From Terriglobales bacterium (GTDB lineage: Bacteria; Acidobacteriota; Terriglobia; Terriglobales; Acidobacteriaceae), in NCBI GenBank assembly GCA_025936825.1, contig JAICSO010000002.1, positions 558,001 to 622,000 on the forward strand: a DNA stretch of 64,000 nt, read 5' to 3'. Below the pieces are notes generated by a model, which made no database searches, was not told where the DNA came from, and saw only the letters and a program-made list of their open reading frames with translations. A program made the position numbers and the translations under genes. This document shows, piece by piece, positions 18,453 to 24,315 of the stretch (position 1 is the first letter of the stretch; every line of letters starts with the position of its first letter).

Positions 18453-19799
18453 TTACGACTTCTCCGACTCGAGCGCGCGGATGTACTCGATGACCGACTC
18501 GCTCCAGCCATCGATGTGCGTCCATTTGCCGTAGCCGACGCCGTTCTTGTACGAAGCCACGTTGATCACGTAGCCCGACGGGCGAGGACGCCCGTCGCTC
18601 CACTTGCTGGGAAGCGGAGCCGGTACTGTGTCGTGCGCCTGCTCGTCGGTGATCACGATCAGGCGGTCATACTTCTCCTTGCGATTCAGTTCCTCGACCG
18701 CCTTACCGAGATAAGTCGCACCGTTCTGCTGCGAAGCATCGATCGCGTCGCGCAGTGCGAACCCCCGCCGAGCGGGTACCTCAACGAGATCATTGGAGAA
18801 AGAAAACACAGAAACCTTCTCTCCAATCTCACGTAGAAGTACCGCGAGGCCGTATGCCGCATCGGTCCGCTGCATCTCCGAACGGCGGGAGAGCGGCGCA
18901 GTCATCGAGCCGGAAACGTCCACCAGCACGATGGTCTTGCCCGGCAGCTTCTCTGCCGAGGCCACCGACTTCAGCATGGCCTGCTCGAGTGCCTCTTCCC
19001 ACTGCGGTGCATAACGCGCAGCAGCAAGGAAGCGGAACGGGAGCACACGCGCCGTGCTCATCTCGCGAAGAGCACCGAGCACGAGATCCTCGTTTACCCC
19101 AGCATCCTTCATGTTGCGAAGGTTGCGGAGAAGAGCAAGTGCTCCGAGCTTCTGTTCAGTGAGCAGCCGCTCCCATGCCTCCCGCTTGTCGGCGCCAGAG
19201 CTGAGAGCAACCTCCCAGGTGTCGGGCGTAGTCATGCGTCCCCAGATGAGGCGCTTCCACACGGCTGCCTGCGCCTCGTCGCGAGGCTTCGCGTGGCAGA
19301 GGAACAGCACGTCCCGCAGCTTGATGGGCCCGCCGCGGTCGTACTTGGCAAGCTGGTACTCATCGAACTTCGGGAACGCGGCCGCCAGCCCCTTCTTCAC
19401 CTGGCCGGAAAGAGGGACACGTCCGTCCTTCCAGTAGATGGCGACAAACTCGGCGAGTTCGTCGGCGCGCTGGATGACGGTGGCGAGCGTGTCGCTCACG
19501 AGGTGACGGTGCGTCTTGTGCCGCGCCATCTCACGAACGAGCAGAAGCGGGGCGTGACGCAGCTTCATCTTCGCGCGAGCCTCGAGGGCAAGCGCGGCCA
19601 CCTTCTCGGCCGCAACCTTCGGAACCAGCTCAGCAATGCGTCCGGCGATCTCGACTCCGTCCTCGTAGAACTGGCTTTCCCAGAGCAGGCACGCGAGAAC
19701 GGAGCGCCGCAGCTGCAGTTCCGTCGAGATGTGACGCGCGGGCGCGCCCTCGTGCGTGCGAGGTCCAAAGTTGAGGTTGAGTGTGTTCAGTCGGGCCAT
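18453..19799 (-). CDS. rsr: Ro60/Rsr-like TROVE domain protein with vWA domain
   Basis: N-terminal alpha-helical repeat region ending in ...VVIQRADELAEFV.../LRNLRNMKDAGVNEDLVLGAL, followed by vWA/MIDAS KTIVLVDVSGSMTAPLSRRSEMQRTDAAYGLAVLLRE and TDEQAHDT; TROVE family organisation. Confidence 0.85.
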   Translation of the reverse strand: MARLNTLNLNFGPRTHEGAPARHISTELQLRRSVLACLLWESQFYEDGVEIAGRIAELVPKVAAEKVAALALEARAKMKLRHAPLLLVREMARHKTHRHLVSDTLATVIQRADELAEFVAIYWKDGRVPLSGQVKKGLAAAFPKFDEYQLAKYDRGGPIKLRDVLFLCHAKPRDEAQAAVWKRLIWGRMTTPDTWEVALSSGADKREAWERLLTEQKLGALALLRNLRNMKDAGVNEDLVLGALREMSTARVLPFRFLAAARYAPQWEEALEQAMLKSVASAEKLPGKTIVLVDVSGSMTAPLSRRSEMQRTDAAYGLAVLLREIGEKVSVFSFSNDLVEVPARRGFALRDAIDASQQNGATYLGKAVEELNRKEKYDRLIVITDEQAHDTVPAPLPSKWSDGRPRPSGYVINVASYKNGVGYGKWTHIDGWSESVIEYIRALESEKS

Positions 19800-19921
19800 G
19801 GTGGCCTCCTTTCTAGCTTTCAGCTGTCAGCTATGCGTGAGAGCAAACACCGTCGTTGGTCGTTGGCTAACCCCAGTCGTCGGTCGTCGGTCTTCGGCCG
19901 TCGGCAAAACCGAACCCGGGA

Positions 19922-20264
19922 GGGCACGGCTTCAGCCGTGCCGATATTAATTGTCTTTTTGTCATTCCGAGCGAAGTGGGAAGGATTCGCCTGCGAACCC
20001 TCCCACAAGTCGAGGAACCAGCTTTTCCCGCCGGGGAATCAGGCGACGACGGTATTCGCGATGCTCTACCACTGAGCTACACGGCCGAAGCCATGGCAGG
20101 AGTCGAACCTGCGACCTTCGGGTTAGAAGTAACCGTAGTCTTCACCACCGGCGAATTGCAGATCCCTCGATCCACCAGACAATTCGCAAACGCGAACCGT
20201 CTGGCTTCGCTCGGGATGACATGTTCAAAAGGTGAAGGAAAGCGGCACGGCTGAAGCCGTGCCC
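19922..20264. repeat. Nested inverted REP-like elements flanking ncRNA 1
   Basis: GGCACGGCTTCAGCCGTGCC (19923-) and its inverse GGCACGGCTGAAGCCGTGCC (20244-), plus GTCATTCCGAGCGAAG (19961-) and CTTCGCTCGGGATGAC (20205-). Confidence 0.8.
20029..20153 (-). ncRNA. Y RNA-like ncRNA 1 with circularly permuted tRNA-like module
   Basis: Ends pair CGCCGG/CCGGCG; GACTACGGT/ACCGTCGTC. Inside, in transcript order: T-arm GCAGG-TTCGACT-CCTGC, acceptor stem CATGGC-[TTCG]-GCCGTG, D-arm GCTC-AGTGGTA-GAGC. Lies between rtcB and the Ro60 gene. Confidence 0.85.
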
Positions 20265-20361
20265 TTGTCGATCGATCCCTCCACGCGAGAGTTAATGCGC
20301 GGATGTCCTCGTTAGACGACTGATCTGCGATCAGGCAGACGTCGAGTCTGCATCTTCCGCC

Positions 20362-21591
20362 TCATCCCTTCACGCACACGACCTGGCGCAACGTGTGGAC
20401 TACGTCCACCAGATCGCGCTGCGCTTCCATCACGGCATCGATGGACTTGTACGCCATCGGTGTTTCGTCGATGACGTCCGCATCCTTACGGCATTCGACG
20501 CCGGCGGTTGCCTTGGCGTGGTCGTCCAGCGTGAAGCGGCGCTTCGCCTCCGCACGAGACATGGCGCGTCCGGCTCCATGACTACAGCTCATGAAGCTTT
20601 CTGGATTACCCTTGCCGCGCACGATGTACGAACGCGCACCCATGCTGCCCGGAATGATTCCCATGTCGCCCTCACGCGCACGGACTGCGCCCTTGCGCGT
20701 GATGAGCACGTTCTCGCCGTGGTGGTGCTCCCAGGTCACGTAGTTGTGATGGCAGCTAACAATTTCCACATTGGCTTCGAACGCCGGGACCTGTCCCGAC
20801 TCGCGCACCGCGGCGATGATGTTGCGCATCATCAGATCGCGGTTGGCGAGCGCGTAGTCCTGCGCCCAGTGCACTGCGCGGACATAGCCCTCGAAGTGCT
20901 CCGTTCCCTGCGGCAGGTACGCGAGGTCCTTGTCCGGCAGGTTGATCATCCACTGGCGCATGTCGTTCTTGGCCAGCTCGATGAAAAATGTGCCAAAGCG
21001 GTTCCCCACGCCGCGCGATCCCGAGTGCAGCAGGAACCAGACGTTCTCGTTCTCATCGAGGCAGACCTCGATGAAGTGGTTCCCGGTGCCGAGCGTTCCC
21101 ATGTGATTCACCCGCTGCGGATGATTCAGCTTGGGATACTTCTCGACAATCGCCTGATACGCCGGCTCCATCTTCGCCCACACGTCCAGGTGATGCGCCG
21201 GAGCATCGCGCCACGCGCCGCGATCGTTCTTGCCGCCGTTGTCAGTGCGTCCGTGCGGCACCGCCTTCTCAATGGCCGAGCGGATGCCGTGCAGGTTGTC
21301 GGGCAGATGGTTCGCGTGCAGAGACGTCTGCACCGCCATCATTCCGCAGCCGATGTCCACGCCAACCGCGGCGGGGATAATCGCGCCGCGCGTCGGAATG
21401 ACGCTGCCTACGGTCGCACCGATGCCCCAATGCACGTCGGGCATCGCCGCCACCCACTTGTAGATGAACGGTAGCTGCGCGACATTCAGCAACTGCTGCT
21501 TCGCCGCATCCTCGAGCTGGACACCCTTGGTCCAGGCCTTGATGGGGACCCCGGTTGTGGGCGTGATTACGTTGTAGGTTGTGTTGGTCAT
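20362..21591 (-). CDS. rtcB: RtcB family RNA-splicing ligase
   Basis: 409 aa; AAVGVDIGCGMMAVQT, MGTLGTGNHFIEVCLDE, LLHSGSRGVGNRFG, SCHHNYVTWEHH, MSCSHGAGRAMSR motifs. Confidence 0.97.
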   Translation of the reverse strand: MTNTTYNVITPTTGVPIKAWTKGVQLEDAAKQQLLNVAQLPFIYKWVAAMPDVHWGIGATVGSVIPTRGAIIPAAVGVDIGCGMMAVQTSLHANHLPDNLHGIRSAIEKAVPHGRTDNGGKNDRGAWRDAPAHHLDVWAKMEPAYQAIVEKYPKLNHPQRVNHMGTLGTGNHFIEVCLDENENVWFLLHSGSRGVGNRFGTFFIELAKNDMRQWMINLPDKDLAYLPQGTEHFEGYVRAVHWAQDYALANRDLMMRNIIAAVRESGQVPAFEANVEIVSCHHNYVTWEHHHGENVLITRKGAVRAREGDMGIIPGSMGARSYIVRGKGNPESFMSCSHGAGRAMSRAEAKRRFTLDDHAKATAGVECRKDADVIDETPMAYKSIDAVMEAQRDLVDVVHTLRQVVCVKG

Positions 21592-21932: not shown

Positions 21933-23182
21933 TTAGATCAGGACGACCACATCCTCGTGTTCCGTCCTTCTGCTTCCCTGCTCCAACTGCAACAATCTTC
22001 CCTGAAACTCAGCCATCGTTTCGGCCGAGCGCGACGCTTCGACAAACTCGCGTGCCTCGCCGTCGGATGATTCCGGAAGAAATCGTCGATACAACTCAAC
22101 CTTCTGGCGATCCGTGGCCTTACCCAGGTATAGCTTGTAATCAATGCGGCCGGGACGCAGCAACGCCTCGTCCAGCTTCTCGATGTGGTTCGTAGTCATC
22201 ACGAACAGCACACCGGTCGGGGCGTAAAACCCGTCGAGCACATTCAGCAGGCCAGAAAGCGTAACCGTGTTCTGCGTCGACGAGTTATCCTTGCCTGCTG
22301 CGGAGCTTCCGCTTGCAGCAGACTTCGCATCGACTCGCGCCTGACTGCCTTTTATGCAATCAACGTCCTCGAACAGGAGGATCGACTTGGGCGGCACCTG
22401 GTTGACCGCGTTCATCAGCGTGCGATCATTGAACTCGGTCAAGTTGCAGGTGTAAATCGAGAGTGCAAAGTGCGCGGCCACAGCCGAGACCAGCGATGTC
22501 TTCCCTGTCCCCGGCGGTCCATAAAACAAATAGCCGCGGTGATACGGTACGCCCAGGCGCTGATAACGAAGCTTCGACCTGTGAAACCTGCTTATGTCCT
22601 CCAGTAAATGCTCCTTCTCTCCGGGCTCCAGGACGACTGAGTCCAGCAGGCGTGCCGAGTAGCCCTGCACCCAATCCCAACCATCGTTGAACGTGTACAG
22701 ATACGACTGCACTCCCAGACGCTTGTTGTGGCACTGCACAACATCGTTGACGAAACCCTGCAGGACTCCACGCTTCCTGCCCAGAGTTCGAAACGTGAAC
22801 GACTCAGAGCGGCGAGTTGCATACCTTTCTGAAGGCTCAGTTCGCGAGAACCAGACTTCGAACGGACGCCTGCCGTACCAGAACCAGTGCTTCCCTGGCG
22901 CCGGATCATCGCGATGCGCTCATTGCGCAGCGTGGTGTCCAGATCCAGGTTGCGGATACGCGCGAGAAACCTCTGCTCCAGAAACCACTCTTTCACCCAA
23001 ACGAACGCCGCGTCGTCATCGGTGACCGTGATCAACATCGTGGTCTGCCGAATGATGCAGTACCAGATAGCTTCCGGCACGCTGCGCAGATACACGCTGA
23101 GCCCGCCGATGATCATCAGGAACAGACCGCCCGACGCAAACGCGTTCTGGCCGGTCAATAGGTTTTTCAGCAAATCGAACAT
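21933..23182 (-). CDS. BCS1-like AAA ATPase, apparent single-base frameshift near 22896-22910
   Basis: N-terminal part MFDLLKNLLTGQ...FVWVKEWFLEQRFLARIRNLDLDTTLRNERIAMI in one frame; continuation PAPGKHWFWYGRRPFEVWF...YLFYGPPGTGKTSLVSAVA...LLFEDVDCIKG in another (BCS1_N then Walker A/B). Confidence 0.8.
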
Positions 23183-23254: not shown

Positions 23255-23416
23255 CGCCGGGGAACCGGCGAGAAGAGTAGACTCGGGGCGCGATTTCTCC
23301 TGGCACTTTGTGCATCGAGGCTACGCCTCTGTCCCAGAAGCTCTGATCCCCGGCAGGGCCGCCGCCCTGCACGTCTTCATTTGGCGCGAAGTATCCCTTC
23401 TCTTTCACCACCGGCG
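23255..23416 (-). ncRNA. Y RNA-like ncRNA 4 (no obvious tRNA module)
   Basis: Ends pair CGCCGG/CCGGCG and GAGAAG/CTTCTC; carries GTGGTG-N9-GGATACTTC and CGCCGGTTCCCC; internal hairpins GCAGGGC-GGCG-GCCCTGC and GAGGC-GTA-GCCTC. Intergenic between the methyltransferase and AAA genes. Confidence 0.65.
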
Positions 23417-23453: not shown

Positions 23454-23996
23454 CTACTTGCCATCCCAACCAACTGCATCCATTACTGGTGTCAAGACTT
23501 CGCCACGCACTTCGTGCAGCATTTCTCTTAACGGCAGCAATGGTGCATTTCCCGCCAACTGTCGCGACATCAACCGATGCGCGAGTACAACGTTCACTGC
23601 CGCACTCAGGTTCAAGCAGAAGTGCGCTGGAATATGTACGAACCGGTGACACATTCGCCGAGTCACTTGCGGCACTTTGCCGTCCTCCGGCCCGAATACG
23701 TAAACAGCGTCTTCCGGATGTTCAAACGTCGTCAGAGGCTCGCTTTGGTCATACACTTCCACACACACCGGCGTGCCTTCGGTGAACAGATCGAACGGCC
23801 GCTCATGATTCATCAACTGGACGCTCTTGTATCCCTTCATGCGCTCTTCCCGCGGAAGGCGGTCGTATTGGGATAACCGAATGCGCGAGCCCGTCCATAC
23901 CAGGGATTCCACGCCGAAGCACGAACACGCGCGAATCGTCGCACCCACGTTGTGCGGGAACTTCGGATTAATCAGCACTACACCTGGCGCATGCAT
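23454..23996 (-). CDS. SpoU/TrmH-family RNA 2'-O-methyltransferase
   Basis: INPKFPHNVGATIRACS, YVFGPEDGKVPQVTRRMC, FCLNLSAAVNVVLAHR are the three SPOUT motifs. Confidence 0.9.
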   Translation of the reverse strand: MHAPGVVLINPKFPHNVGATIRACSCFGVESLVWTGSRIRLSQYDRLPREERMKGYKSVQLMNHERPFDLFTEGTPVCVEVYDQSEPLTTFEHPEDAVYVFGPEDGKVPQVTRRMCHRFVHIPAHFCLNLSAAVNVVLAHRLMSRQLAGNAPLLPLREMLHEVRGEVLTPVMDAVGWDGK

Positions 23997-24056
23997 ACGA
24001 ATGTCCCTCACGTACGCGGACAAGTATGTCCGACCCACACAACACGATCAATCAAT

Positions 24057-24165
24057 GGTCAGGGAACAAGCGGTCACGGCAGGGCTTTCGCCCATGGGGA
24101 TTCGAACCCCGCAGCCCGAAGGCTGTTCTGCCAGAAGAAGTATCCGTAACCAAACACCACTGACC
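24057..24165 (-). ncRNA. Y RNA-like ncRNA 2 with degenerate tRNA-like module
   Basis: Ends pair GGTCAG/CTGACC; inner helix GGTTACGG/CCGTGACC; internal CAGCC-[TTCG]-GGCTG, T-arm GGGG-TTCGAAT-CCCC, GGGC-[GAAA]-GCCC. Confidence 0.8.
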
Positions 24166-24244: not shown

Positions 24245-24315
24245 GCTGGGGGGAATGAACGACAGCGGTATTTGTCGAGTTCCAGTCGAAGTAACCGCAG
24301 CCTTCGCCACCCAGC
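24245..24315 (-). ncRNA. Y RNA-like ncRNA 3, compact, no tRNA module
   Basis: Ends pair GCTGGG/CCCAGC; inner helix GCGGT/ACCGC; carries GTGGCG-N8-GGTTACTTC and CGTTCATTCCC. Confidence 0.75.

Follow-up and report, generated by a model that had tools for sequence, protein, structure and literature searches.

Introduction

In permuted tRNA genes, the 3′ half is encoded first, followed by a linker and then the 5′ half. A circular permutation is also seen in bacterial Y RNAs. The crystal structure of YrlA (PDB entry 6CU1) superposes on tRNA with such a permutation (ARTEMIS paper, PMC11472068), and a review describes YrlA as having a tRNA-like domain that is modified by DusA and TruB, and as binding Ro and PNPase. 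Here, a Y RNA is described from a Terriglobales bacterium, identified within 64,000 nucleotides of contig JAICSO010000002.1 (the window, in whose coordinates all positions below are given unless a locus is named).

Identity and architecture of the Y RNA

The minus-strand transcript of 20029–20153, CGCCGGUGGUGAAGACUACGGUUACUUCUAACCCGAAGGUC-GCAGGUUCGACUCCUGC-CAUGGCUUCGGCCGUG-UA-GCUCAGUGGUAGAGC-AUCGCGAAUACCGUCGUCGCCUGAUUCCCCGGCG, is almost certainly a YrlA-type bacterial Y RNA (Table 1). A search with the Rfam YrlA covariance model (RF02553), the check proposed in the initial annotation, aligns model positions 1–114 to 20037–20148 end to end (54.1 bits, E = 1.8e-11). The score is below the curated gathering cut-off of 69 bits, which is a database threshold and not a biological property, and which no relative scored here reaches either. 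Our own covariance model, R1, scores the RNA at 129.6 bits, this sequence having been included in its construction.

Table 1. Features of the Ro/RtcB locus and its Y RNAs
Feature	Position	Strand	Description and evidence
Y RNA, YrlA-type, whole element	20029–20153	−	125 nt; RF02553 match and own covariance model R1
Ro-binding module, 5′ strand	20126–20153	−	CGCCGGUGGUGAAGACUACGGUUACUUC; nearly invariant in 18 aligned homologues; pairs with 20029–20053
Anticodon-stem 3′ strand	20118–20122	−	CCCGA (tRNA 39–43); register set from T-arm
Variable loop	20113–20117	−	AGGUC, 5 nt, tRNA-like (44–48); G46 in 72/75, C48 in 63/75 relatives
T-arm	20096–20112	−	GCAGG-UUCGACU-CCUGC; sequence and alignments
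Sealed acceptor hairpin	20080–20095	−	CAUGGC-UUCG-GCCGUG; two-sided changes at 6/6 pairs in relatives
D-arm	20063–20077	−	GCUC-AGUGGUA-GAGC; A14, G18G19, A21 present
Anticodon-stem 5′ strand	20057–20061	−	UCGCG (tRNA 27–31); coordinates and loop-open relatives
Ro-binding module, 3′ strand	20029–20053	−	ACCGUCGUCGCCUGAUUCCCCGGCG; conservation and pairing in homologue alignment
Ro60/Rsr orthologue (TROVE and vWA domains)	18453–19799	−	PF05731, PF25045; matches solved TROVE protein 9kop
RtcB RNA ligase	20362–21591	−	PF01139, E = 2.6e-130
AAA ATPase	21933–22739	−	PF00004
Second Y RNA	23255–23416	−	162 nt, non-tRNA-like insert; R1 46.1 bits, E = 2.6e-8
SpoU-family 2′-O-methyltransferase, between Y RNAs	23454–24038	−	PF00588
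Third Y RNA	24057–24165	−	109 nt; T-arm, UUCG-capped hairpin, short GAAA-capped hairpin; R1 37.6 bits; fold z −3.25
Fourth, minimal Y RNA	24245–24315	−	71 nt; Ro module and one small closing hairpin; R1 42.6 bits, E = 1.5e-7; fold z −2.89

The initial annotation placed the T-arm, acceptor hairpin and D-arm exactly, to the base and on the minus strand. The T-arm comes first, the closed acceptor hairpin next and the D-arm last, as in the Rfam YrlA consensus, and 6CU1 is permuted likewise; the proposed topology, whose identity with YrlA had been left to be checked, is therefore the known YrlA topology. It is already published, and the novelty of the tRNA-mimic reading was overstated. The acceptor comprises six base pairs before the tetraloop, rather than seven. 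A loose motif of T-arm, sealed hairpin and D-arm occurs once in the window, against a mean of 0.05 (maximum 1) in dinucleotide shuffles. The nucleotides that make tertiary contacts in tRNA are present in the T loop (UUCGACU) and D loop (AGUGGUA), and U8, A14, G18G19, G46, C48 and the T-loop sequence UUCRA are conserved across 75 non-redundant relatives. A canonical tRNA reading, against which the permuted mimic had been set, was rejected, as neither ARAGORN nor Rfam RF00005 finds a tRNA gene at the locus; nor does the RNA form an open-acceptor cloverleaf in canonical order.

The ends of the molecule leave through the anticodon-stem position into the predicted Ro-binding helix, as had been proposed. 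No other part of the RNA is as conserved as this helix, both strands of which are conserved and paired in 18 homologues. In the window copy, the anticodon-stem remnant UCGCG/CCCGA forms four of five pairs.

Thermodynamic folding of the single sequence, also suggested in the initial annotation, recovers the Ro helix, T-arm and D-arm with a z score of only −1.85. The acceptor hairpin is not recovered by minimum-energy folding and therefore rests on comparison. As this hairpin is missed and the folds of some clear relatives are no more stable than those of shuffled sequences, single-sequence folding is uninformative here and was rejected as structural proof.

Conservation and covariation in relatives

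Ro loci were sampled from Acidobacteria, Alphaproteobacteria, phages, and IMG/VR viral contigs. Eighteen Y RNAs were aligned, and a covariance model derived from them was used to search all collected loci. The aligned homologues adjoin Ro genes in Acidobacteria and phages. The search returned 278 unique matches, 97 of which parsed as T-arm, acceptor hairpin and D-arm; removal of six misparsed matches and of redundancy left the 75 relatives, which belong to Acidobacteria, Alphaproteobacteria and phages.

The six base-proximal acceptor pairs are formed in 60–75 of the 75 relatives, with most pair types represented, and the T-stem pairs in at least 74. In the alignment that includes the window sequence, 95.7% of cells are paired, compared with 40–55% when the structure is slid along it; the values for a second fixed alignment of 29 sequences are 97.7% and 25–47%, with double changes at 13 of 20 pairs. 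Two-sided changes are found at all six pairs of the acceptor hairpin, and in the T-stem at one pair in alignment A1 and three in alignment A4. The D-stem is nearly invariant, so the D-arm is uninformative on covariation. Of the three arms expected to covary, the acceptor hairpin and T-arm thus do so, and comparative support for both is strong.

Apical loops vary among relatives (GCAA, 9; UUCG, 8; GAAA, 5; GUAA, 3; and many others); the closed acceptor is therefore conserved, and the cap is not. The UUCG cap named in the original description of the acceptor is present in the window copy, as one of several interchangeable tetraloops.

Anticodon arms in relatives

An anticodon arm, comprising a three-base-pair stem and a seven-nucleotide loop with U33 and a variable triplet, is kept in 43 of the 75 relatives, a count for which the register was allowed to shift by ±1 and only the stem and U33 were required. 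Under stricter rules (stem 29–31/39–41, seven-nucleotide loop with pyrimidine 32, U33, purine 37, and A38), 32 of 75 relatives have the arm at the exact tRNA register, compared with 0–3 at other registers within five bases and a mean of 0.08 in shuffled segments. The lower anticodon stem is completed across the break, with 27–43 formed in 42 and 28–42 in 41 of the 43 anticodon-arm relatives. The 28–42 pair uses AU, GC, and CG in the alignment of 29 sequences, and so covaries. The frame is fixed while the triplets vary (GUU, GCU, UGU, CUG, CAU, CUU, GAU, GUG, and others). Position 37 in these relatives follows the rule of the genome's own tRNAs, in that A37 comes after U36 in all 29 cases and G37 after G36 in eight of nine. 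C38 is found with the Asp-type triplets GUC and AUC, and likewise in one genomic tRNA-Asp loop (CUGUCAC). Given the register-exact stem and loop, the pairs across the break, and the position 37 rule, the anticodon-arm RNAs look like permuted cloverleaves, and are best read as complete ones opened between 28 and 29.

The window Y RNA is a loop-open form lacking an anticodon hairpin, in which 27–31 pair with 39–43 and the opening lies in the loop. Among loop-open relatives, 27–43 is formed in 27 of 32 and 28–42 in 28 of 32; the inner three pairs are formed less often.

No earlier report of an anticodon arm in Y RNAs was found in the literature consulted, which did not include the primary YrlA papers, and the subclass may already be known. 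An annotated tRNA-Thr of Xanthomonas phage 10KY502B (L053:4461–4528) overlaps a Y RNA whose anticodon-like triplet is UGU (L053:4457–4588) and is probably a misannotation.

Genomic context and further Y RNAs

The Y RNA gene lies between the RtcB and Ro60/TROVE genes, all on the minus strand, with Ro60 229 bp downstream. No sigma-70-type promoter was found in 19700–20500, and transcription of the Y RNA as part of an operon is therefore assumed. In several related loci, a relative of the AAA ATPase directly precedes the Y RNA/Ro gene. The SpoU-family methyltransferase has no counterpart in the other Ro loci searched. Both TrmL and TrmJ models score this protein far under their cut-offs, and its identification as TrmL was rejected.

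Copies of a short palindrome, GGCACGGCTTCAGCCGTGCC, flank the Y RNA at 19923–19942 and 20244–20263. Together with nearby inverted sequences it belongs to a family repeated in the genome (the query segment has 59 matches), and its core is missing from most related Ro loci. Just downstream of RtcB, 20301–20353 could adopt a multi-branched fold on either strand (z −2.0, minus strand).

Three further RNAs with a Ro module were detected with R1 in the window, upstream on the minus strand (Table 1). The third Y RNA weakly resembles the Deinococcus Y RNA (RF01053, 23.2 bits, E = 0.19), a match that is not significant alone. At least two Y RNA matches are present in 24 of the 29 bacterial loci with matches. 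Other permutations appear to exist among Y RNAs, for instance opened in the D-loop. Candidates of this kind, read by eye, are L030:5778–5910, L026:5833–5972, L032:5827–5965, and L028:3786–3915, in which the anticodon arm is often capped by a tetraloop. Weak RF02553 matches were not counted as Y RNAs because at least two of them (in L005, and L054:608–670) fall on tandem tRNA junctions.

Discussion

The best overall explanation, which we consider very likely, is a YrlA-type Y RNA composed of a Ro-bound stem and a sealed, tRNA-shaped effector arm. By analogy with other species, the Ro60 ring would be bound by the long basal stem in which the two transcript ends pair. The inserted module would fold as a tRNA body, with a D/T elbow and a stacked acceptor and T-arm; its acceptor end would be closed by the tetraloop, and its strands opened at the anticodon end where they join the Ro helix. 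Having no acceptor terminus, the RNA can undergo neither aminoacylation nor CCA addition. Within the Ro particle, the tRNA-shaped module may instead be the effector arm, a handle shown to tRNA-binding proteins. As in other species, its T and D loops may receive tRNA-type modifications, and it may recruit PNPase or further proteins that handle tRNAs when RNA is repaired. This handle mechanism, drawn by analogy, is favored here with moderate confidence.

A different role is suggested by the anticodon arms. The Y RNA might mainly lure enzymes that damage tRNAs, anticodon nucleases among them, and so shield the tRNAs or stall the enzyme itself, with the complete-loop relatives acting as nuclease-specific baits. 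The three-base-pair stem and seven-nucleotide U33 loop of the 43 relatives, with variable triplets in a fixed frame, and the agreement of position 37 with tRNA rules would suit such a role, as would the presence of these Y RNAs in phages. Cleavage of anticodon loops induces the Salmonella RNA repair operon, and the authors of that study propose YrlA as a competitive nuclease inhibitor (PMC7790460). However, the window copy has no anticodon hairpin, the SOS-induced anticodon nuclease leaves Salmonella YrlA uncut, and no result here links a nuclease to these loci. As a general account of the Y RNA, luring of nucleases is rather unlikely, while for the anticodon subclass the model, by analogy, seems attractive. 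The broader proposal that complete permuted cloverleaves on a Ro stem make up a large subclass of the Y RNAs of bacteria and phages, and act as tRNA-specific baits or guides in conflicts over anticodon cleavage and repair, is put forward tentatively and is judged less likely than not.

It is very improbable that the element is a permuted tRNA gene, in which a 3′ half, a 4-nt linker and a 5′ half would be circularized and then cut by tRNA-processing enzymes and RtcB into a working tRNA. The arm order matches that of such genes, the RtcB gene adjoins the Y RNA, and CUUCUAA, at the right register, is identical to the loop of the genome's tRNA-Arg(UCU). Set against this, there is no CCA and the acceptor is closed by a tetraloop, the anticodon region contains a C–C mismatch and runs on into the conserved Ro helix, and a normal tRNA-Arg(UCU) is present among the genome's 77 tRNA matches. 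The reading of CUUCUAA as an anticodon loop is itself unsafe and was dropped, since the invariant Ro motif includes CUUC and no three-base-pair stem is present.

Least credible is a mere junction between tandem tRNAs, where the 3′ half of one runs into the 5′ half of its neighbor; this is refuted as the identity of 20029–20153. Weak matches to the Y RNA and the YrlA model do occur at the tRNA-Arg/tRNA-Gly junction of phage Rctr197k (30 bits), the Thanatos tRNA-Arg/tRNA-Met junction, and two adjoining tRNAs of the L005 rRNA spacer. However, neither ARAGORN nor Rfam finds a tRNA gene here, the two acceptor strands form covarying pairs, and the Ro module lies on both sides. Two tandem tRNAs nevertheless give the YrlA-like order where they meet, and such a junction is a possible evolutionary source of the permutation.

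With the YrlA-type Y RNA described here, the YrlA architecture now reaches an Acidobacterial Ro/RtcB locus. Y RNAs of Ro loci are often in arrays, and most of the permuted RNAs appear to belong to a subclass that keeps an anticodon arm obeying tRNA rules. If this is true, the purpose of the tRNA-like arm of the Ro particle becomes testable, as each triplet would predict partners among anticodon nucleases, anticodon-loop modifying enzymes or RtcB.

Comparison with known systems

Permuted tRNA genes of archaea and algae likewise place the 3′ half before the 5′ half. Those genes yield a tRNA with an opened acceptor, whereas in the Y RNA the acceptor is sealed and the ends form the Ro helix. The Salmonella rsr-yrlBA-rtcBA RNA repair operon also brings Ro, Y RNA and RtcB together. 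In the window, RtcB is present, neither RtcR nor RtcA was recognized among the six neighboring proteins scanned, and an AAA ATPase and a SpoU methyltransferase lie there instead. With YrlA itself (RF02553; Salmonella YrlA, 6CU1), the RNA shares its arm order, T- and D-loop sequences, basal Ro stem and Ro/RtcB neighborhood. It differs in its sub-cut-off Rfam score, UUCG cap, Acidobacterial host and the several Y RNAs at its locus, and in having relatives with a full anticodon arm, a feature that is not conserved in the Rfam consensus. The Deinococcus radiodurans Y RNA (RF01053) has the same Ro-binding basal stem and a T-arm inside its insert; in contrast to it, the RNA at 20029–20153 carries the complete YrlA-type module.
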